Below are positions 9,036 to 26,502 of a DNA stretch of 34,923 nt, piece by piece (the stretch's first letter is position 1; each line of letters begins with the position of its first letter). The translations under genes were made by a program, and so were the position numbers. The stretch comes from Anaerolineae bacterium (lineage in GTDB: Bacteria; Chloroflexota; Anaerolineae; Aggregatilineales; Phototrophicaceae). Under the pieces are notes generated by a model that ran no database searches, was not told where the DNA came from, and saw only the letters and a list, made by a program, of their open reading frames with translations. The stretch covers positions 33,970 through 68,892 of the forward strand of contig JALHNB010000035.1 of assembly GCA_022843745.1 (NCBI GenBank). The letters are read 5' to 3'.

Positions 9036-10547
9036 TTATGGCGCGATCACAGCCAGCGTGATCGGATTGGCGAGGTTGAGCATCAGGAATGGGAAAATGC
9101 CGAGCAGCACGGTTCCGGCAAACGACACATAGACCGCCCAATTGACGTACTGGGTTGCGCCTGCTGCGGGGTCGCCTTCACCATCTTTCAGGAACATATT
9201 GACGATGATTCGCACATAGTAGAACGCACTCGCGACGCTGGTCACGACACCAACAATCGCCAGCCCAACCAGGCCGGATTCCATCGTCGCCTGGAAAACC
9301 ATCCATTTGCCGATAAAACCTGAAGTCAGCGGAATCCCCGTCAGACTGAGCATAAACACAGTCATCATCAGTGCGAGCGCTGGCTTACTTTTCCCCAGGC
9401 CGACAAAATCGCTGATATTCGTGCCTGTACCGTCGTTCTTCTCAATCGCCAGCGCGACAGCAAACGCGCCCAGATTGGTGAACATATAGGACATCAGGTA
9501 AACGACTGCCGACTGCGCCGCTTTATCACCGATACCAAGTGTACCTGCCGCCGCGATTGCCATCAGAACATATCCGGCATGGGCGATAGACGAATACGCC
9601 AGCATACGCTTGATGTTGGTCTGCGCGATGGCAACCAGATTGCCGATAATGAGCGTAGCAGCGGCGATCAAAGCAATCGTTTGCTGCCACGCTGCTGTCG
9701 TCTGTCCATCCAATATCACCAGCATGGGAAGACCAACAATCAGAATGCGCAGAAGCGCGGCAAAACCGCCAATTTTCGCGCCGACGCTCATGAACGCCGT
9801 CACCGGAGTGGGAGCGCCTTCATAGACATCGGGTGTCCACATATGGAACGGCACAGCGGCGACCTTAAAGCCCAGGCCGACAATCGCTAACCCCGCCCCC
9901 ATGAGCAGGATCATCATGGACGAATTACCCTCTGTAGCAGTAATCACGCTCACAGACTGGAAAATCTCCGGCAGATTGGTCGTCCCGGTTGCGCCATAAA
10001 TCAGCGCCGAGCCGTACACGAAGAACGCGCTGGCAAACGCGCCGAGGATGAAGTATTTGATACCGCTTTCCTCAGATTTCAGGTCTGGGTAACGCAGCGC
10101 AGCCATGACATACAACGGGATACTGAGCAGTTCCAGGCCGACAAAAATCACGATCAGGTCGTTGGCGTGACCCATGAACATAATTCCGGTAGTCGTGAAC
10201 AGAATGAGTGGATAGAACTCACCGCGCTCAATCCCCGCACGCTTGAGATAATCAACGCTCAAAAGGATGCTGATGAACGCCGTCACCAGCGATATGATGT
10301 TCAAGAACGCGCTGAACGGGTCTGCCGTAAACATGCCGAAAAAGGCGCTGTCAACCGTGTTATAGGTCATCAGATTCAGCACAAAGCTGACGACGATGCC
10401 CGCAAGCGCCAGCCATGCTGTCCGAATTTTGTGTTCGCTAGGGATGAAAATATCCACTGCCAACAAAACCGTTGCATACAGCGCCAGAAAGACTGAGGGT
10501 AACGTCACCCCCAGATTGAGATCGGCTAAAACAGGTACTTCAAACAT
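9036..10547 (-). CDS. nuoN: NADH-quinone oxidoreductase subunit N
   Basis: A 503-residue antiporter-like membrane subunit of complex I, one of three proton-channel proteins in the membrane arm. About 14 hydrophobic helices are visible. Conserved segments include the glutamate helix VIFVGLELLSIPLYVMAAL, GIKYFILGAFASAFF, VAAVPFHMWTPDVYEGAPTP with the broken-helix proline, and NIKRMLAYSSIAHAGYVLM with its lysine. Length is normal for NuoN. It is the last gene of the operon, eleven bases after nuoM. Confidence 0.97.
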   Translation of the reverse strand: MFEVPVLADLNLGVTLPSVFLALYATVLLAVDIFIPSEHKIRTAWLALAGIVVSFVLNLMTYNTVDSAFFGMFTADPFSAFLNIISLVTAFISILLSVDYLKRAGIERGEFYPLILFTTTGIMFMGHANDLIVIFVGLELLSIPLYVMAALRYPDLKSEESGIKYFILGAFASAFFVYGSALIYGATGTTNLPEIFQSVSVITATEGNSSMMILLMGAGLAIVGLGFKVAAVPFHMWTPDVYEGAPTPVTAFMSVGAKIGGFAALLRILIVGLPMLVILDGQTTAAWQQTIALIAAATLIIGNLVAIAQTNIKRMLAYSSIAHAGYVLMAIAAAGTLGIGDKAAQSAVVYLMSYMFTNLGAFAVALAIEKNDGTGTNISDFVGLGKSKPALALMMTVFMLSLTGIPLTSGFIGKWMVFQATMESGLVGLAIVGVVTSVASAFYYVRIIVNMFLKDGEGDPAAGATQYVNWAVYVSFAGTVLLGIFPFLMLNLANPITLAVIAP

Positions 10548-10558
10548 ACCGTGTCCCT

Positions 10559-12145
10559 TTATTTCTCGCCCATACTCAGGGCAACTGTATCCGCATTTTC
10601 AGGAAAGTAAACTTCGACATCACGAACGACCTTGTTCACGCTGGCATCCATTGTGCTGAAGAACGGCGCGGGCTGTAAACCGATCCAGAAAATCGCGATC
10701 AAAATCGGGATCATCACGGCGATTTCCTGCCAGTGCAGCGGTTCGAGATTCTTATTTTCTTCTTTGTCCAGCTCGCCCATATAGACTTTCTGGAACATAT
10801 ACAGCATGTAGACCGCCGCCAGGATGACACCGAGCGTGGCGAACAGCGTGAAGAAGAAGCCGAGCACTTCGCTGCCGAACGAGCCGAGCAAAATCGTGAA
10901 CTCACCGACGAAGCCGTTCAGACCCGGCAAACCCATGCTGCTGAGTGTGACGATCAGGCTGATCGCGCCATACAGCGGCAGCGCCTTCCAGATACCGCCG
11001 AAAGCATCGAGTGCTTTGGTATGACGGCGTTCGTAGAGCATCCCGACGAGCAAGAACAGGCCACCCGTGCTGATACCATGATTCACCATTTGCAGGATAC
11101 CGCCCTGGATACCCGCCGCATTCAGCGCGAAGATGCCCAGAACGACGAAACCAAGATGGCTAACCGAGGAGTAGGCGACCAACTTTTTCACATCGGTTTG
11201 AGCGTAGCTGACCCACGCGCCATAGATGATGCCGATGACCGCCAGTAAAGCGACATAAGGTGCCCATGCGACACTGGCCTCCGGGAACAACGGCAGGCAG
11301 AAGCGCACAATGCCGTAAGTACCCATTTTCAGCAAAACGCCCGCCAGAATGACCGAGCCTGCTGTGGGGGCTTGCACGTGAGCATCCGGCAGCCAGCTAT
11401 GCAGCGGCCAGATCGGGACTTTGATAGCGAAGGCGATCAGGAAGCCCAGGAACAGGAACGATTGTACGCTGACAGGGTCGAGCGATAACAACCCGCTGAA
11501 CGGGAAAACGAGCGTCCCTGCGTTGACACCCGCGATAATCTCCGGCACAGCGAATGTCCCGGCAGCGGTACCAACGTACAAAATCGCCAGCAGCATCAGG
11601 ATCGAGCCAGCCATCGTGTACAGGAAGAACTTGACGGCGGCATAAACACGCTGTTCCGCGCCCCAGATACCGATCAGGAAATACATCGGCACGAGTGTGA
11701 CTTCCCAGAACACGTAGAAAATGAACAAGTCCTGCGCCACAAACACGCCGATCATCGCCCATTCCAGCAGGAGCATGAACATGAAATATAATTTCACGCG
11801 ACCACGTTCGTGGAGGACATGCGCACGGAATGAGGAGAGAATTGCCAGCGGCATGATAAATGTCGTCAGGATGACCAGCAGCAGGCTGAGGCCGTCAATG
11901 CCGACGTAATAACTGATGCCAAAGGTCGGCAAAAAGTCCAACCGCTGCACCATTTGCAGCCCCGGCTCGCTGTTGTCGAAACCGATCCACAGCAGCAGCG
12001 AGGCAATAAAGGTGGCGATGCTGAATCCAAATGCCGTCCATTTAATATTTTCGGCCTGTTCTTCGCGCATAAATAACAAAACGATAAGCCCGACCACTGG
12101 TAGAAACAGGACTACCGTGATGAGCGAGAGTGCAGAAGTATCCAT
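10559..12145 (-). CDS. nuoM: NADH-quinone oxidoreductase subunit M
   Basis: A 528-residue antiporter-like proton-channel subunit of complex I. Key family features: FYVFWEVTLVPMYFLIGIWG with the conserved glutamate, VKFFLYTMAGSILML with the channel lysine, FAIKVPIWPLHSWLPDAHVQAPTAGSVILAG (broken helix), and TDVKKLVAYSSVSHLGFVVLG. The C-terminus is the usual helix followed by a short hydrophilic tail. A good ribosome binding site (GAGGAGAG) lies in the 30-base gap after nuoL. Length is normal, so unlike NuoL and NuoJ it carries no extra domain. Confidence 0.97.
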   Translation of the reverse strand: MDTSALSLITVVLFLPVVGLIVLLFMREEQAENIKWTAFGFSIATFIASLLLWIGFDNSEPGLQMVQRLDFLPTFGISYYVGIDGLSLLLVILTTFIMPLAILSSFRAHVLHERGRVKLYFMFMLLLEWAMIGVFVAQDLFIFYVFWEVTLVPMYFLIGIWGAEQRVYAAVKFFLYTMAGSILMLLAILYVGTAAGTFAVPEIIAGVNAGTLVFPFSGLLSLDPVSVQSFLFLGFLIAFAIKVPIWPLHSWLPDAHVQAPTAGSVILAGVLLKMGTYGIVRFCLPLFPEASVAWAPYVALLAVIGIIYGAWVSYAQTDVKKLVAYSSVSHLGFVVLGIFALNAAGIQGGILQMVNHGISTGGLFLLVGMLYERRHTKALDAFGGIWKALPLYGAISLIVTLSSMGLPGLNGFVGEFTILLGSFGSEVLGFFFTLFATLGVILAAVYMLYMFQKVYMGELDKEENKNLEPLHWQEIAVMIPILIAIFWIGLQPAPFFSTMDASVNKVVRDVEVYFPENADTVALSMGEK

Positions 12146-12175
12146 AAGCAGAACTCTCTCCTCAATGATAAAGCT

Positions 12176-14758
12176 TTAGCCGTTGCGTTGCAGCATCGGC
12201 AGCAGCAAGACAATGATCACAAATACTACGCCCAGCAGCAGCGTGATCGCATAGGTGCGAACGTACCCGGTCTGTACCCGGCGCAAGCGTCCGCTAAATC
12301 CAGTGACAAGGCGACCAACCCCGTTGACCGCGCCGTCGATCAACCCCAAATCAACAGGCTGACTTAATAACCGACCAATCGCGTTGAAGCCTTTGGCGAT
12401 AACAACGTTATGGACATAATCGTGCCAGAAATCCCAATCGAGCGTGTCGGCCAGGAATTTTGACAGACGGTTGAATGGCCCTTCGAATAAACGATAGTAG
12501 GTTTCATCCCAGTACATACGCGCATTCGCCAGACTCCAGATCGCGCCCGTATCCGGGTTTGCGGCCAGCGGGTCCCGGCCTTGTGCCGTATTGGGGGTCA
12601 GCGCATGGCCGTGACCATAAATCGAACGCGCTAGGAAAATGGATGTCAGACCCAACGCAAGTGCGGCAAAACCAATGATCGGGTTAAAGATACCACCCAG
12701 CGGTGCATACGGATGGGCATTTTGCAGCGTGTATTCCAGGAAATGGATCATGTTGCCCTTGCCGAAAATATTCGACAATCCCAGGAATTCCGAGGGTGTG
12801 TTGATAAAGCCGATGAAAATGCTGAAAAAGCCCAGCACGACCAGCGGTATGGTCATGGCTGGCACACTTTCTTCAACCGCTTCGGCGGCTTCGGTGCGCG
12901 GCTTGCCGTAGAAGACCAGTTCCATCTGTCGCCACATGTAGAAGGCGGTGAACCCGGCGGCGGCGATCAACAGACCCAGGGCGATAAACCCGGAGAACTG
13001 CTGCAAGCCTGTCGTCCCGTATAGCCCTGCCAACCAGGAGTCTGCCAGAATTTCGTCTTTAGACCAGAACCCGGCGAAGGGTACGATACCCGCCAAGGCC
13101 AGTGTACCGAATAAATATGTCCAGTACGTGATCGGCATCTTGTTCCGCAGACCGCCCATATTGCGCATGTCCTGCGGGTCAAATTCTGCTTCATGGTGAT
13201 GGTCGTCATGGTCATCATGATAGTCATCGTGATGATCGTCATGGCGGTCATCATGCCCATGTGCGTGGCTGGCGTGGTGATGGCCGTGTTCCATGCCATG
13301 AATGACCGAGCCGCTGCCCAGGAACAGAAGCGCTTTGAAGAAAGCGTGTGTGACCATATGGAACATCGCTGCGCCATATGCACCAACGCCGACTGCCGCC
13401 ACCATAAAACCAAGCTGGCTGATCGTGCTGTAAGCCAGAACGCGCTTGATGTCCCACTGCCCCATCGCGATAAACCCGGCGATAATCGCAGTGGTCGCGC
13501 CAATCATCGTCACAATAAACGAGGTCAGCGGCGCATTCACAAACAAGACATTCGAGCGCACCATCATATAAACGCCCGCCGTAACCATCGTCGCGGCATG
13601 GATGAGCGCACTAACAGGTGTCGGGCCAGCCATCGCGTCCGGCAGCCAGACAAACAGTGGGATTTGCGCGGATTTACCCGTCGCACCCAGCAGCAGGAAC
13701 AGAGTAATCAGAATGATAACGGTTTTGATTGGCAGCTTGAATGGGCCAAAATCGACTTCACGGCCTTCTTCGATCATGCGCTCAGCCTGACCGAAAACGC
13801 CAAGCTGCGCGGTTTCAATGTGTTCGTTATTGGTATAGTGGGGAACTGCGGATTCGCCGTGCGCGTCTTCTTCGACATGTCCAGCAGCTTCGTCAACAAC
13901 GACTTCACTGTGTTCTTCGCCTTCAGTGGATTCCTCAGCAACCGCCTCGGCGTGTTCTTCACCCTCGACGACAGCAGCCTCGGTATGCTCTTCACCTTCG
14001 ACAACGGCTTCCGTATTGATTTCACCTTCGGAGACGACAACATCGCCCTCGGCGTGTTCGCCTTCGGCAGCGGCTTCGTGCGCTTGTTCTTCGGCCAGTT
14101 CAACATTGGCGATTTCACCCGGTCTGTAGTAGTCCAGTGTGCCAAATGTCCAGAAGATCAGGAAAATCGCCATCAACATGCCGAAATCACCGACGCGGTT
14201 GGCAATCATCGCCTTGCGTGCGGCGTTGCTGTTTTTCCAGCCGACACCATTCGGCTTATCGAACCAGAAGCCGATCAGCAGGAACGAGCAAACGCCCACG
14301 CCTTCCCAACCGACGAAAAGCATCAGATAATTATTGCCGGAGACCAGCACGAACATGAACGCCAGAAACATATTCAAGTAGGCGAAAAAGCGTGTAAAAC
14401 GCGGATCGCCGTGCATGTAGCCGCTGGCGTAGATGTGGATGAATGTCGCGACAAACGAGACAAACATCATCATCGTCACACTGAGCGTATCGACGCGCAT
14501 CTGCCAGGGGATTTCCACACTGGTACCGATGCGAATCCAGCCATCGAAAAACGCTGGATTGACGATCACGCCTTCATTATGATTATTCGTCAGGTAGCTA
14601 AACAGGAGAAACGCGACGACAAACGTCAAAGCCGAGGCAAAAATACCAATGCGGCTCGACCATTTCTCGCCGACACGTGCGCCCCAGAAAAAGTTAATGA
14701 ACGCCCCGATGGAGGGGATGAGGATCATTAACGGTACAAGCTGTGCATAAGTTTGCAT
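12176..14758 (-). CDS. nuoL: NADH-quinone oxidoreductase subunit L with acidic and His-rich inserts
   Basis: The distal proton-pumping subunit of complex I, with a C-terminal lateral helix bracing the membrane arm. The core is standard: MFVGWEGVGVCSFLLIGFW, AMIANRVGDFGML, GKSAQIPLFVWLPDAMAG, SALIHAATMVTAGVYM, DIKRVLAYSTISQLGFM and HAFFKALLFLGSG. At 860 residues it is longer than the usual 600-700. Two inserts explain this. Residues about 217-336 form an acidic, repeat-rich segment (units like VEGEEHTEA) between the helices ending FWTFGTL and starting IKTVIILI. Residues 487-522 form a His/Asp-rich loop (HDDHHDDYHDDHDDHHH) just before the conserved MRNMGGLRNKMP. Both are in frame and the flanking motifs are intact, so the gene looks functional. 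Confidence 0.96.
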   Translation of the reverse strand: MQTYAQLVPLMILIPSIGAFINFFWGARVGEKWSSRIGIFASALTFVVAFLLFSYLTNNHNEGVIVNPAFFDGWIRIGTSVEIPWQMRVDTLSVTMMMFVSFVATFIHIYASGYMHGDPRFTRFFAYLNMFLAFMFVLVSGNNYLMLFVGWEGVGVCSFLLIGFWFDKPNGVGWKNSNAARKAMIANRVGDFGMLMAIFLIFWTFGTLDYYRPGEIANVELAEEQAHEAAAEGEHAEGDVVVSEGEINTEAVVEGEEHTEAAVVEGEEHAEAVAEESTEGEEHSEVVVDEAAGHVEEDAHGESAVPHYTNNEHIETAQLGVFGQAERMIEEGREVDFGPFKLPIKTVIILITLFLLLGATGKSAQIPLFVWLPDAMAGPTPVSALIHAATMVTAGVYMMVRSNVLFVNAPLTSFIVTMIGATTAIIAGFIAMGQWDIKRVLAYSTISQLGFMVAAVGVGAYGAAMFHMVTHAFFKALLFLGSGSVIHGMEHGHHHASHAHGHDDRHDDHHDDYHDDHDDHHHEAEFDPQDMRNMGGLRNKMPITYWTYLFGTLALAGIVPFAGFWSKDEILADSWLAGLYGTTGLQQFSGFIALGLLIAAAGFTAFYMWRQMELVFYGKPRTEAAEAVEESVPAMTIPLVVLGFFSIFIGFINTPSEFLGLSNIFGKGNMIHFLEYTLQNAHPYAPLGGIFNPIIGFAALALGLTSIFLARSIYGHGHALTPNTAQGRDPLAANPDTGAIWSLANARMYWDETYYRLFEGPFNRLSKFLADTLDWDFWHDYVHNVVIAKGFNAIGRLLSQPVDLGLIDGAVNGVGRLVTGFSGRLRRVQTGYVRTYAITLLLGVVFVIIVLLLPMLQRNG

Positions 14759-14766
14759 GAAAACCT

Positions 14767-15069
14767 CTAGCCTTCCATCTGGTGCAGTTCGTCAATGTCG
14801 ATGCTCTTCTTGGTACGGAAGATGGCGACAATCAACGCCAGCCCAACCGCGACCTCGGCGGCAGCAACGGTGATAACGAAAAACACAAATAAGTGACCAT
14901 CCGACGCGCCCCACTGACGGGCAAACGCGACCAGCGCCAGATTTGCAGCGTTCAGCATCAACTCTACCGACATAAACACCAGGATAGCGTTGCGGCGCAA
15001 AAGAACGCCCATCGCGCCCAGGATAAACAGCACCATGCTTAAAACGACGTAGGCTTCAGTCCCAACCAT
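14767..15069 (-). CDS. nuoK: NADH-quinone oxidoreductase subunit K
   Basis: A 100-residue, three-helix proton-channel subunit. It has the two conserved membrane glutamates of the family in [18 protein letters not shown] and [19 protein letters not shown]. Length matches NuoK. GGGGAGAG about ten bases before the ATG serves as ribosome binding site. It is nine bases upstream of nuoL, while a 123-base gap holding two palindromes separates it from nuoJ. Confidence 0.97.
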
Positions 15070-15087
15070 CAGCCATTCTCTCCCCTA

Positions 15088-15115
15088 GTAGGGGCAAACC
15101 CGGTGGGTTGCCCTA
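15088..15115. repeat. GGGGC-armed palindrome, nuoJ-nuoK gap, copy 1
   Basis: A near-perfect inverted repeat beginning GTAGGGGCAAACCC and ending GGGTTGCCCTA, able to form a stem-loop in RNA from either strand. It sits just upstream of the nuoK ribosome binding site. It shares the GTAGGGGCA head with the copy at 15145-15170. Confidence 0.7.
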
Positions 15116-15144
15116 ATTCTTACAGCCGTTCCAAATTTGCTTCC

Positions 15145-15170
15145 GTAGGGGCAGGTCTAAGACCCGCCCT
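15145..15170. repeat. GGGGC-armed palindrome, nuoJ-nuoK gap, copy 2
   Basis: An imperfect inverted repeat, GTAGGGGCAGGTCT then AGACCCGCCCT, with one mismatch in the arms. It lies 22 bases after the nuoJ stop. No T-run follows on the minus strand, so it does not look like a strong terminator; it may be a mobile REP-like element or an mRNA-stabilising stem. Confidence 0.65.
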
Positions 15171-15192
15171 GATAAAAGCGATTTCGAAACGG

Positions 15193-16482
15193 TTAAACTT
15201 TCTCTTCTTCGCCCACTGCTTCCGGCAAAGCTTCTTCAGAAGCACCATTCGTATCCGGTACATAAACATCATGTCCGGTTTGCGCACTCAAAACACTAGT
15301 CAGCGGACGGCTGACTTTGCGGCGGCCCAGCACACGCCGTTCAATACTTGATACTTCCTTGGGCTTGTGAGTCAGCACAATCGCGCCGATCATCGCCACC
15401 AGAAGCAGCAAGGCGACCATCTGCATCGGCAGCAGATAGCGCGTAAAGAGCGCCTGCCCCATCGCCAGCGGCCCGCCAAAACTGGCTGATGTACTCGCAT
15501 CCAAAGCCACAGTCTGCGCCCGAAGCGTTCCATCGAGCTGCGGTTCGGTGGAAACAATCAGGAATTTCGAATTATCGCGCTCAATCTCATATGATTCCGG
15601 GTCACTCAAACGGAACAGGACATTATCCACGTTTCCGGCTTCGACCAGCGCCCAACTGCGCAAATCTGTCGTTTCCTTCACGATGATTGGCTCAGAAAGC
15701 GTATCCTGCGGGATTTCAGCGATAATCGTTTGCGTATCTTCCAGGTCATAATCGGAGCCAAAATCAACCAGGCTGATCGCTGGTACGCCGCTAAAACCGT
15801 TGAAAACTGTTACACGTCCGCTGCGCTCTGGCACAGTGCTTAAATCTTCACTCTCCAGCACAACCAACGGGACAGCATCAGTTCCATAAGCAATCGCCGT
15901 TCCCGTAAAACCGGAATCCAATGTGACGGTTGACGCTGTCAGCGCATCCTGTGTGCCTGCGTTAAACAAGGCAAGATTATATTCACCCGGTGGCAGTGTC
16001 ACAAAATCGGTACTATCGCGATATTCGACACTCGCCGCGATCAATTCCCCATTGGCATAGACATCCACATTGCCAACTTCGGGCGCAAAATGCGCGACAC
16101 GGAGGATTGGCTCGGCACTTGGCGCGGCACTCAGGTTAACCTGCCCCTGACCAATTGCTACACCAGCGGTAATCAGAAACAAAATCGACAGGAACACCGC
16201 GACTGGGGTGATCCAGCGTAATCTTGTCGAGCGTGTACCCAGTTTTTCCGCGCCGAGGAGCATAATCACAAATAAAAATAACACCATAATCGCCCCGGCA
16301 TAAACGGTGATCTGAACCATTGCCAGGAAGGGCGCATTGAGCATTAAGAACAGAAACGCGATACACACCATGATAAGAATCAGGAAAAGTGCGCTGTGTA
16401 CAGCATTTTCACTCAACAGCATCATCACAGCGGAAACGACGCTGATAATGCCTACTAAAAGAAACAAATTCACTTCTGTCAT
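15193..16482 (-). CDS. nuoJ: NADH-quinone oxidoreductase subunit J with inserted DUF4397-like domain
   Basis: The core is a five-helix complex I subunit: helices at about 5-25, 30-50, 54-77 (VQITVYAGAIMVLFLFVIML, containing the conserved TM3 glycine), 90-110 and 351-371 (LPMQMVALLLLVAMIGAIVL). NuoJ is normally about 165-200 residues; this one has 429. Between helices 4 and 5, residues about 115-337 form a soluble insert. Its first part reads ILRVAHFAPEVGNVDVYANG, then FVTLPPGEYNLALFNAG, which match the pattern of DUF4397 domains usually found in secreted proteins. By standard NuoJ topology this loop faces the outside. A ~58-residue charged tail (372-429) follows helix 5. Flanking NuoJ motifs (LFTRYLLP) are intact, so I read this as a true insertion. 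Confidence 0.93.
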   Translation of the reverse strand: MTEVNLFLLVGIISVVSAVMMLLSENAVHSALFLILIMVCIAFLFLMLNAPFLAMVQITVYAGAIMVLFLFVIMLLGAEKLGTRSTRLRWITPVAVFLSILFLITAGVAIGQGQVNLSAAPSAEPILRVAHFAPEVGNVDVYANGELIAASVEYRDSTDFVTLPPGEYNLALFNAGTQDALTASTVTLDSGFTGTAIAYGTDAVPLVVLESEDLSTVPERSGRVTVFNGFSGVPAISLVDFGSDYDLEDTQTIIAEIPQDTLSEPIIVKETTDLRSWALVEAGNVDNVLFRLSDPESYEIERDNSKFLIVSTEPQLDGTLRAQTVALDASTSASFGGPLAMGQALFTRYLLPMQMVALLLLVAMIGAIVLTHKPKEVSSIERRVLGRRKVSRPLTSVLSAQTGHDVYVPDTNGASEEALPEAVGEEEKV

Positions 16483-16597
16483 TGCGATAGTCCTAGATTA
16501 TGGGCGCTTGAAAATGACTTTGTGGATTTTAGCGCAAATAGCGCCAGAGTCAAACGTCCGGCGCTATAACTTCCCCCTCGAATTTTCAATCCACCCT

Positions 16598-17092
16598 TTA
16601 TTTCGGGTTTTCCATATCGGGAATTGGGCGGTTGAATTTTCCCGGCTCGACTTGCTGCGGCGATCCCTCTGTGCCTTCAGGCGGCGGCACGATCAACATA
16701 TCTTTGGTGTAGATCGCATCGCGACGATTGGTAAAGCTCAAACGATGTTCCTGTGTCAGCACAATCGCCTCCGTTGGGCAGGCATCTTCGCAGTAGCCAC
16801 AGAAAATACAGCGCAGCATGTTAATCTCATACGTCTTGGCATAGCGTTCGCCAGGGCTGTAGCGTTCTTCATCGGTATTTTCCGACGCTTCTACCCAGAT
16901 CGCGTCTGCGGGGCAGGCTGCTGCACAAAGCGAACACCCAATACATTTTTCCAGGCCATTATCATAGCGTTTTAATTCATGACGGCCCTTGAAACGTTCC
17001 TGAAATGGCTTTTCCTGCTCCGGGTATTGGATCGTGACCGGCTCTTGCAGAACATGCTTAAACGTCGTTCGAAATCCCTTAATTAAGTCCAT
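16598..17092 (-). CDS. nuoI: NADH-quinone oxidoreductase subunit I
   Basis: A 164-residue ferredoxin-like subunit of the peripheral arm carrying the two [4Fe-4S] clusters N6a and N6b that pass electrons to NuoB. The two binding motifs are complete: Cys50, 53, 56, 60 (CIGCSLCAAACP) and Cys95, 98, 101, 105 (CIFCGYCEDACP). The N-terminal GFRTTFKHVL amphipathic helix is as in the family, and a short Pro-rich tail follows. AAGGA nine bases before the ATG supports the start. A 115-base gap separates it from nuoJ downstream, in which I see no gene. Confidence 0.97.
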   Translation of the reverse strand: MDLIKGFRTTFKHVLQEPVTIQYPEQEKPFQERFKGRHELKRYDNGLEKCIGCSLCAAACPADAIWVEASENTDEERYSPGERYAKTYEINMLRCIFCGYCEDACPTEAIVLTQEHRLSFTNRRDAIYTKDMLIVPPPEGTEGSPQQVEPGKFNRPIPDMENPK

Positions 17093-17126
17093 AACTGAAA
17101 TCCTTCACACATTAATCCGCGCCAGA

Positions 17127-18815
17127 CTATTTCGTCTGCGATGGTTTATTGTCAGACGGCTTGACTTCTTCAATAGCTGTCGTCGAGGCTGGCGTACCAT
17201 CAGGGTCAGCGCCTGCCAGATCATCCAAAACTTTGAGCGTAAAGTTATAGATCACAAACGGCCCTGCCAGAATGCCGCCTACAACTTGGAGTGCGGCGTA
17301 GCCGATGCCTGAACGTTCTCCCGTGATCATCGGATCAAGTTCATCTTGGTCGGAGTCATCAGAGCGCCGCAGCAGGAGATATGCACCAATGATGACGAGG
17401 GCGAAAATGATTCCTGACACGAGGCTGTATACCCCTGTGCTTTGGAACACCTCACCGATAACCACTGATATGGCTGTCCAGCACACCGCCACCAGAGATA
17501 ACGGCAGCAAAACCTTCCATCCAAAGTGCATCAGACGATCATAACGAATGCGTGGCAGTGTTGCGCGTATCCAGATCATCGCCATCAGCGTCAGAACGAT
17601 CTTTCCAATGACGACCAGCGGCCCCAGGATCGGAACGCTATCGACAAGGCCAAAGCCGTCCTGATAACCACCAAAGAACATCGACACCGCGATCCAGCTC
17701 ACCGCGATCATGCCCAGGTATTCACCCATCATGAACATCGCGAATTTCATGCCGCTATATTCGGTCATAAACCCGGCGGTCAGTTCCTGCTCGGCTTCTG
17801 GCAGATCAAACGGTGCGCGATTAACTTCCGCCAGCAGCGCGATAAACAGAATACCGGCGGCCAGTGGATTCTGGAATACATACCATTCCCAGATCATTTT
17901 CTGTTGGCTGACAATATCCACGACACTCAGGCTGCCTGCCAGCAAAATCGGAACGGCAATTGCGAGGCCGAGGCTTAATTCGTAGCTAATCATTTGTGCG
18001 GAAGCACGGAGGCCGCCGAGCATGGCATATTTGTTATCGCTTGCCCATCCAGCCAGTGCCACGCCATATGTTCCGAGGCTGGTGATCGCCAACAGCCACA
18101 GTACGCCGACGTTGGGGTCAGACAGCGCGAGAGGAACGTTATACCACACGTCGCCTAGTGACGGTGCGAACCAGGGAATACGAATGTGCGGCCCCAGCGG
18201 TAAAACAGCCAGAATGACCAGCACAGGCACAGTCTTGAGCAGCGGTGCAATCAGATACACCGGACGATCAGCACCAGCAGGCATGATGTCTTCTTTAAAA
18301 ATCAGCTTCACGCCATCAGCGGCAGGTTGCAGGAAACCCTGCGGGCCAACGCGGTTCGGGCCAACGCGATTCTGGAAAAACGCCAGCAAACGCCGTTCGA
18401 GAAGCGTCGTGTAGGCGAAACTCGTGAGCACGATGAAAAACACCAATGCCGCGAAGACAATCGGATAGACGACGCTGCATCCGGGATCGGTGTAGCATTC
18501 CACAACATTCATCTGGCGCGTACCCGGCGCAAAGACCGTATTCAGCGCGCCATCGCCAAAGGCAAAAAGCGCAGGCCAGTTGACAATAACGATTAAAGCC
18601 ACAGAGAGCAATTGCAGCACAATAGAGGCAGGGAAAGCCCAGATTCTTCGAATGATCAGCACAAATGGGACTGCCAGGATCGCCAGAGCAACCCATTTGA
18701 CCAGCGCGTCAACTGGCGCACCCAAAACCGTGAGGGCAGCGAGAATGCCGAGGACAACCCCGGCGGCAATCGACCCAAGCACGAGCATACGGATTACAAT
18801 AGGGGGTATATTCAT
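17127..18815 (-). CDS. nuoH: NADH-quinone oxidoreductase subunit H, extended at both ends
   Basis: The membrane subunit that forms the quinone-binding chamber with NuoB and NuoD. The conserved core starts at about residue 117: TTLLERRLLAFFQNRVGPNR, then GFLQPAADGVKLIFKEDI, EVNRAPFDLPEAEQELTAGF with its acidic loop, and RATLPRIRYDRLMHFGWKVLLP. At 562 residues it exceeds the common 320-420. About 115 residues precede the core and contain three hydrophobic helices (roughly 6-30, 40-57, 62-82). After the core come extra hydrophobic stretches, one at SGIIFALVIIGAYLLL and one at ALQVVGGILAGPFVIYNF, then a polar Lys/Pro-rich tail. The start follows nuoG by five bases, with GAGGG inside the nuoG end as ribosome binding site. 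Confidence 0.95.
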   Translation of the reverse strand: MNIPPIVIRMLVLGSIAAGVVLGILAALTVLGAPVDALVKWVALAILAVPFVLIIRRIWAFPASIVLQLLSVALIVIVNWPALFAFGDGALNTVFAPGTRQMNVVECYTDPGCSVVYPIVFAALVFFIVLTSFAYTTLLERRLLAFFQNRVGPNRVGPQGFLQPAADGVKLIFKEDIMPAGADRPVYLIAPLLKTVPVLVILAVLPLGPHIRIPWFAPSLGDVWYNVPLALSDPNVGVLWLLAITSLGTYGVALAGWASDNKYAMLGGLRASAQMISYELSLGLAIAVPILLAGSLSVVDIVSQQKMIWEWYVFQNPLAAGILFIALLAEVNRAPFDLPEAEQELTAGFMTEYSGMKFAMFMMGEYLGMIAVSWIAVSMFFGGYQDGFGLVDSVPILGPLVVIGKIVLTLMAMIWIRATLPRIRYDRLMHFGWKVLLPLSLVAVCWTAISVVIGEVFQSTGVYSLVSGIIFALVIIGAYLLLRRSDDSDQDELDPMITGERSGIGYAALQVVGGILAGPFVIYNFTLKVLDDLAGADPDGTPASTTAIEEVKPSDNKPSQTK

Positions 18816-18820
18816 ATTTT

Positions 18821-21313
18821 CTAACCCTCAACTACAGCCGCTTGGCCGACTTTGCTGATGCTGCCCACCGTAGCGGTCAGCGGCACAGCGTTCGTCGCCA
18901 AATGACGTGGCAGAATAACGGCTCCCTTTGGCGCACGACCATCAACCTGAGCGCGAACACGGATCGCGGATGCTCCGGCAATGGCAATTTCGACCATATC
19001 GCCGTTGTTGATATTCAAGCGTTTTGCATCGGCACTGTTGATCTCGGCATACGGATCAGCCACACGCGGGTGCATCAATTCGCTGGATTGGAAAGTGCGC
19101 TCACGATTATAAAGCACTTGTGTCGGGATAATGAGCATTTTGCCCTTGCCGACTTTTGGTGTCTCCGGTACAAAGACCTCGCCAACGTTCAAGGTTTCAC
19201 CCTGATCGGCTGCGGTTGGAATTTGTACACCCAGGCCGCCTGTGTTTTCGTAGGCAGTCCCGCCGTAGTACACATCTTTCTGGATCATCGGGAACTGAGG
19301 TTCGACATGCGCCAGTTCTTTATAACGTGCGCCTTCAAATGCGGGGACGCTCTTGGTGATGTCCAGCATCACAGCGGCGGCAGACAGTTTTACCTTGCCC
19401 TGACCGAGCAGTTCGCCAATGCGTCCTGCAACTTGCCATGCCGGGGTCGCTTCACCAATCGGCCCCTGCGCAGTATAGAAACGCTGGACACGGCGTTCGC
19501 CATTGACGAATGTGCCGTCACGCTCCGCAAAACTCTGGATGGGCAGCGCAACCGTCGCCAATCCTGCCAACGCGTCATTGAACAGCGTCAGGCTGATAAT
19601 CGTTTCGACTTTTGTCAGCCATTCGCCAACAGACGGGTCATCGGCGATCAGATCAGACTGGGCGACGATCAAAACTTTGGGCGGCTTCTGCGCGATGTCG
19701 AGTGTCGCTTCGGGCGTGAAGCCCATGTAGTACAGACCCATCGCGTTCGAGCCAGGGAATGCCGACATCAGGCCGTTGTTAGCTTTGCCGATGTGTCCTG
19801 TTTTAATCAGGAAATTAGCGGCGGATTGCATCAAGGCACGGCTTTCGACCAGCGTCAGGCCGTCCGCGCCCGTCAGGATAATCAGGTTATTGGCAGCGGC
19901 TAATTTCTTGCCAAGGTCAGATGCCTCAATATCAGCCATGAATTTTGGCGCTTCGCCATATTCAAACGTCGCGGTTTCGCTGGCAAATTCGTCCATCTGG
20001 GTCTTGCGGGCGTTGGCGACGACGACAATTGCGCCGCGCTTCCGGGCCTGGTTGATACGCAGACGCCAGACGGGAGCTTCTTCTTCCAGGTCACTGGCGA
20101 TAATCAGCACCGCATCGCCCTTGCCGAGTGCGCTCAAATTCGTACCCTTGCCGACACCCACCTGGGCAACCAGATCAGCACCCGCGTGAGTCGGAGGCCA
20201 TGCCCCCAGGCGTTCACTGCCGAGGCCGTTGGCAAGCTGCTTGAGCGCCCACAGGTCTTCGTTGCTCATGCTGCTGCCAGCGATCACCGCGACATCACTG
20301 CCTGCGGCTTTCAGCTTGTCAGCGGCAACTTGCAGCGCACGGGTCAAGCTGGCGGGAGCATTACCTGTCATCGGAATTTGCAAACGATCTGCACCGCGCG
20401 AGAAATGATGACCGAAACGACCTTTGTCGCAAATCCAGATTTCGTTGACTTGTTCGTTCTGGCGCGGCATCACACGCTTGATGATCGCACGTCCACCAGC
20501 GTCACGATCCAGACGGGTGCTGAGGCTGGTATTGCAGCCCACAGGACATTGCGGGCAAATGCTTGGCACGTTGGTGAGTTCCCAGGGACGCGCACCAAAG
20601 CGGAAATCCGCCGTTGTCAGCGCACCAACTGGGCAAATATCGGTGGTGTTACCGGAGAAATACGAGTCAAAGCCGGGTTCGCTGTTGGTAATGATTTGCA
20701 GCGAACGTCCACGCTCGTGGAAAGCCAGCACATCGTCGCCAGCAACTTCATCCTGGAAACGGATGCAGCGGGCGCATTGGATGCAGCGTTCTTCATCGAG
20801 GAATATCAGATCACCCAGCGGGACATGCTTGTCCAGGTGCATCTTGTCCGCAAAATTCATGCGCGTCTTGCCAGGGCCATGCTCCATGGTCAAATTCTGA
20901 AGCGGGCATTCGCCGCCCTTGTCGCAAACCGGGCAGTCAAGCGGGTGGCTGGTCAGCAAAAATTCGACAACATTTTCACGTGCCTGGTCAACCTGCTTGG
21001 TGTTCGTGCGGACGGTCATGCCATCGCTGACATTGGTTGTACAAGCCGTTTGCAGCTTGGGGAACCAGCGAACTTTCGGCTGACCCTTGTCGTCCAGCAC
21101 GACCTCGCCCGTAGCACGATCTTTTTCGATACTGCCCAATTCCACCAGACACATGCGGCACATACCGACAGGTGACATCTTAGGATGGTAGCAGAACACC
21201 GGAATATCGTTGCCCAATGCTTTGGCGGCATCCACCAGATTTGCCCCAGCGGGAACCTGATAGGACACATCATCTATGTAAATCGTGACTGTTTTGGTTA
21301 TGTTCGTTACCAT
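18821..21313 (-). CDS. nuoG: NADH-quinone oxidoreductase subunit G
   Basis: The large Fe-S subunit of the NADH arm, about 830 residues. With numbering from the GTG three codons upstream (21322), I see the [2Fe-2S] ligands Cys44, 55, 58 and 94; the His126-x3-Cys130-x2-Cys133-x5-Cys139 motif of cluster N5; Cys180, 183, 186 and 230 for a [4Fe-4S] cluster; and an extra CPQC-x3-C set at 256-263 with a later WICDKG cysteine, the ligands of cluster N7 found in many bacterial NuoG. The remainder is a molybdopterin-oxidoreductase-like domain without evidence of cofactor binding, ending in a small beta domain. I prefer ATG 21313 as start. Confidence 0.96.
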   Translation of the reverse strand: MVTNITKTVTIYIDDVSYQVPAGANLVDAAKALGNDIPVFCYHPKMSPVGMCRMCLVELGSIEKDRATGEVVLDDKGQPKVRWFPKLQTACTTNVSDGMTVRTNTKQVDQARENVVEFLLTSHPLDCPVCDKGGECPLQNLTMEHGPGKTRMNFADKMHLDKHVPLGDLIFLDEERCIQCARCIRFQDEVAGDDVLAFHERGRSLQIITNSEPGFDSYFSGNTTDICPVGALTTADFRFGARPWELTNVPSICPQCPVGCNTSLSTRLDRDAGGRAIIKRVMPRQNEQVNEIWICDKGRFGHHFSRGADRLQIPMTGNAPASLTRALQVAADKLKAAGSDVAVIAGSSMSNEDLWALKQLANGLGSERLGAWPPTHAGADLVAQVGVGKGTNLSALGKGDAVLIIASDLEEEAPVWRLRINQARKRGAIVVVANARKTQMDEFASETATFEYGEAPKFMADIEASDLGKKLAAANNLIILTGADGLTLVESRALMQSAANFLIKTGHIGKANNGLMSAFPGSNAMGLYYMGFTPEATLDIAQKPPKVLIVAQSDLIADDPSVGEWLTKVETIISLTLFNDALAGLATVALPIQSFAERDGTFVNGERRVQRFYTAQGPIGEATPAWQVAGRIGELLGQGKVKLSAAAVMLDITKSVPAFEGARYKELAHVEPQFPMIQKDVYYGGTAYENTGGLGVQIPTAADQGETLNVGEVFVPETPKVGKGKMLIIPTQVLYNRERTFQSSELMHPRVADPYAEINSADAKRLNINNGDMVEIAIAGASAIRVRAQVDGRAPKGAVILPRHLATNAVPLTATVGSISKVGQAAVVEG

Positions 21314-21337
21314 CGCTCTCACTCGGTTCTATAAATT

Positions 21338-21754
21338 TTATGACCGTTTTTCAAGATGGCGTTTGGCTTGTGCCAAACCAATCAGGGCGCGATCTTGCAT
21401 CACCTGCGCGATCAGCCCCCAATTATCCACAGCTAAATGCTCGGATGCCAGTTTTTGCGCGATCTCGAAATCGGCCACCGCCAATTCGTATTCGCCCATT
21501 TGCAGATATAACTCACCCCGCAGCACATAATTGGCGGGAGAATCCGGGTTCGCTGCAATCGCCTTAAACAAATCTTCCAATCGCCGTTGGTGGCGATCAA
21601 CACCCCACCCTAAAAAGCTTCGAAAGCGATTCCAGAGGGATTCCGCTGGCTCACTCGCAGCTTCAGGTTGCAAGGTTTCGGCAGCAGTCGGTTCAACATC
21701 CGCCGGAATCTCGGAATACTCGTCTTCCGAAACCGGCGTACTATCACCTGACAT
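21338..21754 (-). CDS. Small TPR-type protein within the nuo operon
   Basis: A 138-residue soluble protein that is not one of the 14 complex I subunits. Residues 1-40 are acidic and low-complexity. Residues about 57-135 are helical, with a TPR-like unit at about 73-106 (YVLRGELYLQMGEYELAVADFEIAQ). No signal peptide or membrane helix. The start lies three bases after the nuoF stop, and nuoG begins 24 bases after its stop, so it must be co-transcribed and likely translationally coupled with nuoF. Placement suggests an assembly or scaffold role for the NADH arm, but that is inference from position only. Confidence 0.8.
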   Translation of the reverse strand: MSGDSTPVSEDEYSEIPADVEPTAAETLQPEAASEPAESLWNRFRSFLGWGVDRHQRRLEDLFKAIAANPDSPANYVLRGELYLQMGEYELAVADFEIAQKLASEHLAVDNWGLIAQVMQDRALIGLAQAKRHLEKRS

Positions 21755-21757
21755 CGC

Positions 21758-23101
21758 CTAATCCCCGGCCTGTGCCGCTGCTTCCTTACCACGACGCGGC
21801 GCTGGAGCAGCCTTCGCCGGGGCCGCTTTTTCTGCCGCAACTTCTTTCTTCTCGACGTGCGCCTTGAAATCCTCTGGGAAATTCTTGATCGTGTGGATGA
21901 TCGGGTTTGCGGCAAAATCGCCCAACGCGCACAGGGTTACGCCAGACATATTTTTGGCGATATTGTTAATCAGATCAACGTCTGATTCCTGACCTTTACC
22001 GGACAGAATACGGTCAACAACCTTATCCAGCCAGAAAGTTCCCTCACGGCATGGTGTACATTTGCCGCAGCTTTCATGTTTGAAGAACTTGATCGCTTTG
22101 GATGCAACCCAAACCATATCGACGGTTTCATCCATGACGATGATCGAGGCCGAGCCTAAGATTGTTCCGGCTTTTGCCATATCTTCATAGGACAGCTTGG
22201 TATCGAGAATCGGGTCGTCATTGCCATTGACGCGCATGATCGGGCCAGAGCCGCCGGAAGGCAGGATACCCTTAATCTGCTTGCCGTTGGCGATACCGCC
22301 CGCGTGGGTGTAAAGCAGTTCGCGGAAAGTCGTGCCAAGCGGCAGTTCATAATTGCCCGGTTTGTTAACGTGACCACTGACACAGAAAATCTTGTTGCCG
22401 GAGCTTTGTTCCGTACCAATTTTCTTATATTCATCCGGGCCGTTGACCAGAATCCAGGGGGCGTTGGTCAGCGTTTCGACGTTATTAACAACCGTCGCCT
22501 CTTTATACAGGCCGCCGCCTTTTTGCGCTGGGAATGGTGGACGGACGCGCGGCTGACCGAGCTTCCCTTCCAGACTTTCCAGCAGGGCGCTCTCTTCACC
22601 GCAGATATATGCGCCTGCACCGAGATGCGTATATACATTGCAGTTCCAACCGCTGCCAAGCACATTATCGCCTACGAACCCGGCCTTACGTGCTTCTGCA
22701 ATGCGTTCGTCGAGCGCATGAGCCACATCCCAGAACTCACCGCGCAGGTAAATGTAGACGGCTGTGGCCTGGATCGCCCAGGCGCAGATCATTGCGCCTT
22801 CGATCAACTGATGCGGGTTGGTTTCCAGAATCTCGCGATCTTTAAACGTCCCGGCCTCGCTCTCGTCGGCGTTCACGGCAACATACTTGATTGGCTCACT
22901 CTGTGGGATAAAGCTCCACTTCATGCCCGCCGAGAAGCCTGCGCCACCGCGACCACGCAGATTGGAAGCCTTCACCAGATCAATCACTTCCGACGGCTTC
23001 ATCGAGACGGCCTTTTTCAAGCCTTCATAGCCGCCATTGGCCGTGTAAACATCGAACTTATAAATATCGGAAATGTCTCTTCCGCGCAGCAAAATGTGCA
23101 T
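21758..23101 (-). CDS. nuoF: NADH-quinone oxidoreductase subunit F
   Basis: The NADH-binding flavoprotein of complex I (447 residues). FMN/NADH sites: GRGGAGFSAGMKW at 50-62 and GAGAYICGEESALLESLEGK at 161-180. The [4Fe-4S] N3 ligands are Cys345, 348, 351 (ESCGKCTPCREG) and Cys391. The start is ATG 23101, where the family N-terminus begins and AGAGG lies upstream; the frame stays open 26 codons further but those codons are the repeat element of the intergenic hairpin. A Lys/Ala/Pro-rich tail of about 30 residues follows the last helix and has no counterpart in standard NuoF. Confidence 0.97.
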   Translation of the reverse strand: MHILLRGRDISDIYKFDVYTANGGYEGLKKAVSMKPSEVIDLVKASNLRGRGGAGFSAGMKWSFIPQSEPIKYVAVNADESEAGTFKDREILETNPHQLIEGAMICAWAIQATAVYIYLRGEFWDVAHALDERIAEARKAGFVGDNVLGSGWNCNVYTHLGAGAYICGEESALLESLEGKLGQPRVRPPFPAQKGGGLYKEATVVNNVETLTNAPWILVNGPDEYKKIGTEQSSGNKIFCVSGHVNKPGNYELPLGTTFRELLYTHAGGIANGKQIKGILPSGGSGPIMRVNGNDDPILDTKLSYEDMAKAGTILGSASIIVMDETVDMVWVASKAIKFFKHESCGKCTPCREGTFWLDKVVDRILSGKGQESDVDLINNIAKNMSGVTLCALGDFAANPIIHTIKNFPEDFKAHVEKKEVAAEKAAPAKAAPAPRRGKEAAAQAGD

Positions 23102-23121
23102 TACATAATTCCTCTCAAGTA

Positions 23122-23190
23122 CCAAGTGCTGAGTACCGAGTGCTGAGTGGTTGGACTGTATATTCTCAGCACTTAGCACTCACAACTCGG
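23122..23190. repeat. Long GTGCTGAGT-based inverted repeat between nuoE and nuoF
   Basis: Two 26-base arms, 23122-23147 and 23165-23190, pair with three mismatches and a few G-U pairs around a 17-base loop. Each arm is itself built from repeats of a unit like AGTGCTGAGT. It lies between the nuoE stop and the nuoF ribosome binding site. No T-run follows, so it is not a typical terminator; it could be a processing or stabilising stem in the operon mRNA, or a mobile repeat. Confidence 0.75.
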
Positions 23191-23203
23191 CACTGAATGC
23201 TTA

Positions 23204-23698
23204 TTACTTCTTTTCCGCTTTGGCTTCCGCGCGCCACTGCTCGATCTGCGCCTTCATTTTTTCCATATCGAGATTCTCGACAAAATGAAAGTTGCATTGC
23301 AACATCGGCGCTTTGTCGCAGGCAGCCAGACACATCACATGCTCGACGGTAAACATCCCGTCAGCCGTTGTGCCGCCTTCCTCGACGTTCAGATATTCTT
23401 TCAACTGTTTGTGGAATTCATCCGCGCCGCGCAATGCACAGGGCAGATCATTGCAGACCTGAAGCCAGTATTTGCCTTTGGGCTGCTCGGAATACATGGT
23501 GTAGAACCCGGCGATGGACTTCACCTGAGTCGGATCCATGTCACAATACTGAGCCACTTCCTCGATACCTTCAGGGCTAACCCAGCCGTATTCCTCCTGG
23601 GCAATATACAGCAGGGGCATTACCGCCGAGCGTTTATCGGGATACTTGGCGAATGTGGCTTCAATGCGTTTGGCGTATTTTTCATCGTGAATCGACAT
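23204..23698 (-). CDS. nuoE: NADH-quinone oxidoreductase subunit E
   Basis: The 24-kDa-type subunit with the [2Fe-2S] cluster N1a, 164 residues. Ligands Cys82 and Cys87 (VCNDLPC) and Cys123 and Cys127 (MCLAACDKAP) are all present in a thioredoxin-like C-terminal half; the N-terminal helical half has the conserved LLYIAQEEYGWV. AAGGA precedes the ATG. It starts eleven bases after nuoD ends. A ~100-base gap with a long stem-loop follows before nuoF. Confidence 0.97.
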   Translation of the reverse strand: MSIHDEKYAKRIEATFAKYPDKRSAVMPLLYIAQEEYGWVSPEGIEEVAQYCDMDPTQVKSIAGFYTMYSEQPKGKYWLQVCNDLPCALRGADEFHKQLKEYLNVEEGGTTADGMFTVEHVMCLAACDKAPMLQCNFHFVENLDMEKMKAQIEQWRAEAKAEKK

Positions 23699-23709
23699 CT
23701 TTAATTTCC

Positions 23710-24978: not shown

Positions 24979-24995
24979 AACTGTTTCTCCTGTCC

Positions 24996-25532
24996 CTATT
25001 CTTTAGCCAGCGGCTTGTGCTTGAGAATTTCTTCGATATTAAATGAGAACTGGATCGTCTCGTAGCCCAGCGGATAATCGCGGCGGTGCGGATGCCCGTC
25101 CCAATCGGCAGGCATGAGCAAACGGCGCATATCAGGATGCCCGCTGAACGTAATTCCCATCATGTCGAAAATTTCGCGCTCCAGCCAGTTCGCCACCGGC
25201 CATACCCCGGTCACAGTTGCAACAGTGGTATCATCTTCCGGCACAAAAACTTTCAAACGCAGTCGCCGATTATAAAGCAGCGAATAAATATGATACGAAA
25301 CACCAAAGCGTTCCGGGCGCGAAGCTTCGGGATAATAATCGACAGCGCTGATGTCAGACAAAAAGGTATAGATCAGACCTGGTGTGTCACGCACGTACTG
25401 CGCGACAGCGACGATATGTTCGCGATTGATAATCAGCGTGGTTTCGCCGCGAAATTCCTTTATATCGGCAATCGCATCCGGCAGCGCGGATTTTATAGCG
25501 ACTGCCGGATCAAGTGGTTTTGGAATCTGCAT
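24996..25532 (-). CDS. nuoC: NADH-quinone oxidoreductase subunit C
   Basis: The 30-kDa-type subunit of the connecting module, 178 residues. The family signature is intact near 117-130 (ANWLEREIFDMMGITFSGHP), followed by RRLLMPADWDGHPHRRDYPLGY. AGGA lies upstream of the ATG. Normal length for a stand-alone NuoC. It is preceded by an 86-base gap after nuoB that holds a stem-loop. Confidence 0.97.
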   Translation of the reverse strand: MQIPKPLDPAVAIKSALPDAIADIKEFRGETTLIINREHIVAVAQYVRDTPGLIYTFLSDISAVDYYPEASRPERFGVSYHIYSLLYNRRLRLKVFVPEDDTTVATVTGVWPVANWLEREIFDMMGITFSGHPDMRRLLMPADWDGHPHRRDYPLGYETIQFSFNIEEILKHKPLAKE

Positions 25533-25572
25533 GATATTTCCTAACGAACAGACATTTCTAAGACAAACGACA

Positions 25573-25595
25573 GGAGCAACTCAAAGAGCTGCCCC
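25573..25595 (-). repeat. Stem-loop between nuoB and nuoC
   Basis: On the minus strand GGGGCAGCTC pairs with GAGTTGCTCC across a three-base TTT loop, giving ten consecutive pairs (two of them G-U). It lies 24 bases past the nuoB stop. The downstream tail is only mildly T-rich, so it may be a weak attenuator or another member of the GGGGC-armed palindrome group. Confidence 0.6.
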
Positions 25596-25618
25596 AGGTG
25601 ATACTTCACCCCGATAAC

Positions 25619-26451: not shown

Positions 26452-26502
26452 CAGCCACTCCTGCACGTCGATTGTTCAATTTGGAGCAAATAAACTAAGG
26501 CA

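Follow-up and report, generated by a model that had tools for sequence, protein, structure and literature searches.

The window, by which we mean the whole stretch of 34,923 nucleotides that was analysed, contains a nuo cluster (Table 1) in which all 14 subunits (H-N and A-G) were identified with Pfam. Within this cluster, the gene for NuoJ encodes a protein enlarged by an insert at residues ~121-332, between transmembrane (TM) helices TM4 and TM5. Complex I core subunits are highly conserved, and what is added to the complex usually takes the form of separate accessory subunits or of short extensions. Examples of such additions are described in passages of PMC8762328 and PMC11522691. The cluster also holds a 138-residue ORF between nuoF and nuoG, for which no Pfam match was found at E up to 1e-5.

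Table 1. Positions of the nuo cluster and of the parts of NuoJ in the window, with the basis of each assignment (aa, amino acids; D1 and D2, first and second domain of the insert).
Feature	Position	Strand	Basis and remarks
nuoA-N cluster, complete, one strand	9036..26466	-	Pfam; from A (26092-26466) to N (9036-10547)
nuoJ with inserted ectodomain, complex I core subunit, 429 aa	15193..16482	-	PF00499, E 7.8e-37; PF14344, E 1.3e-17
TM helices 1-4 of the normal NuoJ core, aa 2-111	16150..16479	-	AlphaFold2 helices; alignment to solved NuoJ/ND6 chains
D1, first Ig-like beta-sandwich, DUF4397, aa 126-217	15832..16107	-	PF14344; 7 strands, pLDDT mostly >93
D2, second beta-sandwich, a diverged repeat resembling DUF4397, aa 218-332	15487..15831	-	hhalign; 8 strands
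Pre-TM5 helix and TM5, aa 338-371	15370..15471	-	Helices 338-348 and 350-371; stretch common to insert-free NuoJ
NuoJ C-terminal tail, aa 372-429	15196..15369	-	Basic near TM5; low model confidence
nuoL, 860 aa, long acidic TM6-7 loop	12176..14758	-	Pfam; loop extracytoplasmic by homology
nuoH, 562 aa, enlarged	17127-18815	-	Pfam; relatives' frames
Extra ORF between nuoF and nuoG, 138 aa	21338-21754	-	TPR-like by eye

The protein scored 126.7 bits against Pfam Oxidored_q3 (cut-off 33.2), with the best stretch at residues 17-120. The NCBIfam subunit-J equivalogs were matched in two stretches and below their cut-off (best 122.1 against 192 bits); because the match falls in two stretches, the insert may be what splits it. 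AlphaFold2 modelled the full-length protein with a mean pLDDT of 79.4 and a pTM of 0.66, the TM part scoring lower than the insert. The helices of this model span residues 2-23, 27-47, 51-80 and 91-111 (pLDDT 61-87 by blocks) and its strands run from 126 to 330, followed by the two helices at the TM5 end. Solved NuoJ/ND6 chains align to the model across the insert, as seen with Paracoccus 8qby_J (Z 11.3, model residues 2-374) and with 6khi_G (Z 12.4 over residues 1-376). The protein shares with NuoJ, Nqo10 and ND6 the five TM helices, the place in the nuo cluster and the invariant TM3 residues, and it is a genuine complex I NuoJ in which TM5 follows the long loop. It differs from the solved chains found by sequence, which are 145-252 residues long and none of which aligned over the insert itself, by approximately 210 additional folded residues. 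The C-terminal tail, cytoplasmic by homology, is longer in the alignment than that of short NuoJ. In many carriers of family f1 these long tails are basic with a motif resembling RR.VSRPLTSVI..Q.G (majority consensus of 20 sequences), which is reminiscent of the C-terminal extension of Paracoccus ND6 as described in excerpts of PMC11522691.

A first-pass annotation of this DNA had placed the insert at residues 115-337 (nucleotides 15470-16140), and alignment to insert-free NuoJ confirmed this within a few residues. Relative to NuoJ proteins of the order that lack the insert, the added residues start after TM4 (around residue 115) and stop at approximately 336-338. The right edge of the insert lies directly ahead of a conserved FG[SG]P..G..LF..YLLP.. 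stretch that leads to TM5. D1 reached 64.9 bits against Pfam DUF4397 (cut-off 30.6, residues 127-237), and DUF4397 was matched at E up to 0.01 in 15 of the 25 members of alignment A2, which equals its number of long members and argues against a chance match. For D2 of the window there was no match to any Pfam family at E up to 1, nor was the DUF4397 gathering score reached. DUF4397 was matched in 2 of 13 D2 sequences (best E 2.7e-7), and a profile-profile comparison with hhalign matched D1 to D2 (probability 92, E 6.6e-7, 52 columns). The DUF4397-like character proposed in the first-pass annotation holds above the Pfam cut-off for D1, but the single domain that it had envisaged is replaced by two tandem domains on the basis of the AlphaFold2 model and the D1-D2 profile match. 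Among 20 sequences, R128 and G166 of the insert are invariant and D140, G200, R223, N228 and D240 nearly so; in our judgement these positions look like residues of the DUF4397 fold. A catalytic role was rejected because the insert has no conserved Cys and no enzyme family was matched on it in Pfam.

Folded alone (AlphaFold2, 15 sequences), the insert gave two tandem beta-sandwiches with a mean pLDDT of 93.7 and a pTM of 0.89. The best solved match over the whole length of this model was the extracellular domain of PepT2 (5a9i; Z 17.0, 182 residues, 2.9 A, 12% identity), and Foldseek also listed PepT2 first (E 2.4e-7). Full PepT1 transporters gave Z scores of 14.7-15.9, and in the PepT1 domain crystal 5a9d only one domain was aligned (Z 10.8, 88 residues). 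Single-domain fold matches were seen with the lumenal domain of HGSNAT (Z 10.1-11.1) and with the C-terminal and N-terminal domains of AlgF (10.8 and 9.6), both from unrelated systems. Hydrazine dehydrogenase chain 6hif_Y gave Z 7.3. D1 also matched transthyretin-like and cytolysin domains, with background-level Z scores of 6.8-8.5. By sequence, a phmmer search with the insert returned no hits at E up to 1, and a profile search returned only AlgF (E 0.23) and a synthetase (E 0.66), the PepT domain not being found. According to excerpts of PMC4597091, the PepT domain consists of two immunoglobulin-like folds in tandem, inserted between TM9 and TM10, and its binding of the soluble partner trypsin was measured. 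PepT1 and PepT2 (SLC15) thus resemble this NuoJ as polytopic, ion-coupled transporters with a tandem Ig-like pair in an extracellular loop. They differ in that there is no sequence match and that the pair is hosted by an MFS transporter instead of complex I, and the resemblance is likely to be convergent or very remote.

The side of the membrane on which the insert lies was assigned by homology with ND6. According to passages of PMC10036122 and PMC9977279, the TMH3-4 loop of ND6 contacts NDUFA9, which is bound to subunits of the hydrophilic arm in the account given in parts of PMC8762328. Because the TMH3-4 loop touches a protein of the hydrophilic-arm side, the TMH4-5 loop lies on the opposite side; excerpts of PMC8762328 show NDUFA1 with the ND6 TMH4-5 loop and place its meeting with ND6 in the intermembrane space. 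By homology, the insert in the TM4-5 loop of NuoJ should therefore face outward, on the extracytoplasmic side. The net charge of the TM3-4 loop in long NuoJ averages +0.8 (range -5 to +3), that of the first 40 residues of the C-terminal tail +4, and that of the insert -22.8 (range -42 to -6; 45 of 46 long NuoJ, with L038 missed by the motif). This pattern agrees with an outward insert weakly at the TM3-4 loop and better at the tail and the insert. These data fit the first-pass annotation, which had proposed a beta-sandwich on the extracytoplasmic side of the TM4-5 loop; the fold comes from AlphaFold2 and the side from homology. It had named the lack of a structural match to DUF4397 or any folded domain as grounds for dropping the idea, and the Pfam, AlphaFold2 and PepT2 results supply such matches.

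We also looked at where else DUF4397 occurs in this genome. There were 22 matches, 19 of them above the cut-off, and nuoJ is one of the 19. Eleven other ORFs carry the domain. A search with the D1 profile recovered 10 of them, and in 9 of the 10 the N-terminus, judged by eye, is signal-like or has a lipobox. The family is common to D1 and to exported-looking proteins, the other ORFs examined being repeat proteins of this kind and not enzyme loops. Three of them (L001, L002, L010) contain Fasciclin domains and two contain bacterial SH3 domains (one at L188). The Fasciclin family is known from proteins of cell-surface adhesion. The exported-looking repeat proteins of this genome (G000) lie at L188, L001/L189, L002 and L010, and one is lipoprotein-like.

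To describe how widely the insert occurs, we took a census of 133 genomes of the order that are at least 85% complete. A whole long NuoJ, with an open frame of 405-519 residues, was found in 115 of them, distributed by family as 85 of 89 in f1, 12 of 14 in f3, 3 of 3 in f4, 9 of 11 in f7 and 6 of 7 in f8. All 115 of these genes, each read individually, have D1 and D2 profile matches between TM4 and TM5; because the profiles were built from NuoJ inserts, some from the same genomes, these hits show that the domains are present and are not an independent family assignment. From the end of the TM1-4 match to the TM5 match, the 115 carriers have 212-299 residues compared with 20-37 in eight insert-free genes measured. 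Three further carriers (G056, G471, G058) have a NuoJ cut or split by contig ends, and nine genomes have a short, insert-free NuoJ (five in f2, one in f5, two in f6, and G466 of f3). The insert is thus kept in 118 of the 127 genomes where such a NuoJ was found. No such NuoJ was found in the other 6 of 133: G001 and G537 had no match at E 1e-18, and in G006, G010, G048 and G483 the best NuoJ matches were only 1.1e-19 to 6.4e-22 or weaker.

An initial survey had given a match of some kind in 60 of 61 related genomes. Across the phylum 171 of 400 genomes were matched, and among the matches listed the insert occurred only in two genomes of the window's own family. At least five of the 14 named carriers overlap census genomes (L076/G008, L077/G036, L082/G015, L084/G054, L081/G465) and so are not independent of the census. 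An assembly chimera, the other possibility raised in the first-pass annotation, is ruled out by the order-wide census together with carrier G027 (L050), which is a single contig of 5.6 Mb. As a correction to the annotation, the insert is a trait of much of the order and not of one genome. An unrelated insert of ~115 residues occupies the same NuoJ loop in two genomes of Chloroflexota family f84 (G311, G353; L157, L158 / L182) and is an independent case of insertion at this place.

Two changes of insert state are needed on trees from which NuoJ was left out, both with 44 rows (NuoF, G and I; the outgroup does not fall on one side of a branch) and with 50 rows (seven subunits; sparsely filled columns removed, rooted on one row). 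Both were quick searches under one model, with L182, which has the unrelated insert, coded as lacking the insert and L183, a cut gene, coded as having it. In the 50-row tree the base of f1, f3, f4, f7 and f8 (24 rows) has an SH-aLRT of 100, as does the f3 clade with G466. With two state changes and the outgroups outside, the history reads, as far as these sequence trees go, as a single acquisition at the base of f1, f3, f4, f7 and f8 and a single loss in G466 (L180) within f3. In the L180 NuoJ the loop is short (23 residues between the TM1-4 and TM5 matches), and the C-terminal tail is, by eye, like that of f3. Because the core of this NuoJ is intact after the loss, the insert behaves as a removable module.

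Selection on the insert was estimated from close pairs. In 11 of 12 pairs the dN/dS of the insert was 0.053-0.278 compared with 0.008-0.104 for the core; the pairs are not independent, insert dS exceeds 1 in three of them, and dS was not estimable in the twelfth. These ratios show that the insert is under purifying selection. It is not more relaxed than the core in 2 of the 11 pairs (L048/L051 and L033/L035). Across 14 named relatives, identity to NuoJ of the window is 53-77% in TM1-4 and 19-43% in the insert. The insert is thus maintained but, as a rule, diverges faster than the core. Low dN/dS together with low identity suggests a domain that is retained with a drifting surface, which is what a peripheral contact module should show.

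The neighbouring subunits are also enlarged. Passages of PMC11522691 place the TMH6-7 loop of Paracoccus ND5 in the periplasm, and the corresponding NuoL loop of the window has 119 residues as cut, with a net charge of -35. NuoL also has a His/Asp-rich loop at about residues 495-545. In the 27 loci measured outside the order (26 of the named collection and L182), two motifs of the TM6-7 region lie 48-68 residues apart. Within the order their spacing is 90-110 in six insert-free loci, 95-199 in 23 loci with the insert (two of which are the same locus from two collections) and 136 in the loss lineage L180; eight loci lacking a motif were dropped. By this measure, lineages that lack the NuoJ arm likewise have a partly enlarged outer face of complex I. 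NuoH has ~120 extra N-terminal residues, with hydrophobic stretches and then a two-Cys segment (CYTDPGC), as well as a C-terminal extension. These extensions are found in some relatives and missing in others: NuoH frames are 485-518 residues long in f5 and f6, which lack the insert, and 395 residues in L081, which has it. Strict co-evolution of the insert with a longer NuoH is ruled out because NuoH length does not track the insert.

The idea that the nuo cluster holds a gene for a dedicated partner was likewise rejected, since the ORFs in four extra gaps of relatives' clusters (L078, L079, L080, L087) differ by eye and nothing is shared. A small secreted-looking ORF lies between nuoJ and nuoK in the insert carrier L087 (10380-10890), and in L079 a secreted-looking ORF lies on the opposite strand between nuoL and nuoM. 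The genome of the window has a second nuo cluster (L067, G000:C3:105000-124999) with NuoA-H-J-K-L-M-M-N in a row and a NuoJ of 174 residues without the insert; a search for NuoF, NuoG and NuoI in this 20-kb stretch found none of them. As for alternative complex III as a partner, an NrfD search of the genome was empty and the control was positive in 4 of 14 genomes; NrfD_2 had no match in this genome nor in any of the 14 control genomes, and is hence uninformative. The genome does contain cytochrome b, COX1, a Rieske-like protein (by eye) and cox genes beside COX1, which makes an aerobic chain plausible. The cytochrome b at L192 (1567-3513, minus strand, G000:C3) has 648 residues with a long, partly acidic, Ala-rich C-terminal extension past its Pfam domains; its neighbours are a cytochrome c ORF and an ORF that looks Rieske-like by eye.

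We tentatively propose, as a possibility somewhat short of probable, that the insert is an outward protein-contact arm that docks complex I to an extracytoplasmic partner. The extracytoplasmic TM4-5 loop of NuoJ would have received a tandem DUF4397 (Ig-like) pair, and the resulting two-domain arm would stand on the outer membrane face near the NuoH/NuoA/NuoJ/NuoK junction while leaving the proton pathway untouched. The putative partner would be a protein of the cell envelope or another respiratory complex nearby, and docking would be analogous to that of the PepT1/PepT2 ectodomain, which is proposed to dock trypsin. The first-pass annotation had suggested the cell wall, another respiratory complex or a substrate as possible contacts. 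We prefer docking over internal stabilisation because the insert, unlike the core, drifts and because it was lost without visible change in NuoJ. Docking is also preferred because the domain family is otherwise exported-looking in this genome, with Fasciclin in three cases, and because of the PepT precedent.

Against docking, the enlarged segments of NuoL and NuoH on the same face fit internal packing at least as well. Also to be counted against it are the most conserved insert positions, which look like residues of the fold, the two pairs in which the insert is not relaxed relative to the core, and the weak charge signal at the TM3-4 loop. If packing were the role, the arm would be a built-in accessory subunit on the outer 'sole' of the complex (the NuoH-NuoJ-NuoK-NuoN junction), where it would stabilise complex I or its assembly. 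Accessory subunits of the mitochondrial intermembrane space offer a parallel: in excerpts of PMC8762328, mammalian NDUFA1 interacts with ND1, ND6, NDUFA8, NDUFS5 and NDUFA13 in this space and is hypothesised to link two subassemblies. The longer NuoL TM6-7 spacing in the order also suggests an outer face that has grown as a whole. Yet the NuoL loop is long in insert-free lineages too, the length of NuoH varies independently of the insert, the insert diverges faster than the core on which it would have to pack, and its loss in L180 brought no visible compensation in NuoJ. We consider such a stabilising role somewhat less likely than docking, yet a serious rival to it.

The unrelated f84 insert marks the TM4-5 loop as a permissive site and, with the one clean loss, raises the thought that a surface domain landed once in a tolerant loop and has been carried along as a nearly neutral passenger. 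The low dN/dS of the insert (0.05-0.28 in 11 of 12 close pairs) speaks against this, although part of that signal could come from selection for folding alone, and so do its retention in 118 of 127 genomes and the two recognisable domains in 115 of 115 whole genes. A neutral history is improbable on these grounds.

The arm is tied to TM4 and TM5 beside TM3, and rotation of NuoJ TM3, which opens and closes the proton path, is central in a mechanism proposed in passages of PMC10212512. With few residues between the last strand (to 330) and the pre-TM5 helix (338) in the model, the arm might act as a regulator that responds to a signal from outside or limits the switch between the open and closed states. 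We regard this as very improbable: the position of ND6-TMH4 varies so much across species and states that the authors of PMC9977279, in the part concerned, suggest that it lacks functional importance, and the insert has no conserved Cys, 37 of 45 inserts having none at all. It is most improbable of all that the insert (mean net charge -22.8) and the NuoL loop (-35 over 119 residues) form a negative outer surface holding protons or cations at the exit side, as all 10 other DUF4397 ORFs measured in this genome are acidic (-2.5 to -9.9 per 100 residues over whole ORFs, compared with -11.4 for the NuoJ insert) and acidity may be generic for its outer proteins.

As a comparison, excerpts of PMC11522691 describe lineage-specific additions to core subunits of Paracoccus complex I that include periplasmic loop insertions (an ND6 C-terminal extension, ND4/ND5). 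In those excerpts the additions are hairpins or disordered stretches, unlike the folded two-domain ectodomain of this NuoJ. Among the matches listed, open-licence PMC papers contained no report of a NuoJ with an insertion or an immunoglobulin-like domain; this is weak evidence, and it agrees with the remark in the first-pass annotation that no such NuoJ had been described. None of these papers had DUF4397 together with complex I. The passages that mention DUF4397 concern an Fn3-like domain of a chitinase and an archaellin compared with AlgF (in a table note), and in part of a phage nuclease paper the name is also used for a zinc-finger domain.

The NuoJ ectodomain was apparently acquired a single time, has been cleanly lost in one lineage and is otherwise retained under selection; nature has in effect run a domain-insertion experiment on a proton pump. 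The outcome shows that the TM4-5 loop of NuoJ is able to carry more than 200 residues, in an architecture that parallels mammalian PepT. The insert-free relatives in f2, f5 and f6 and the loss in G466 provide ready-made controls, and the arm is a handle for purifying such complexes. At its widest, the docking proposal would make complex I of this Chloroflexota order a surface-docked machine that is tethered to an envelope or respiratory partner by an Ig-like arm carried in cis on a core subunit; taken as a whole, this is doubtful and would have to be called unlikely. In this organism and its relatives, a core proton-pump subunit has been given a built-in domain of a type used in protein contacts.
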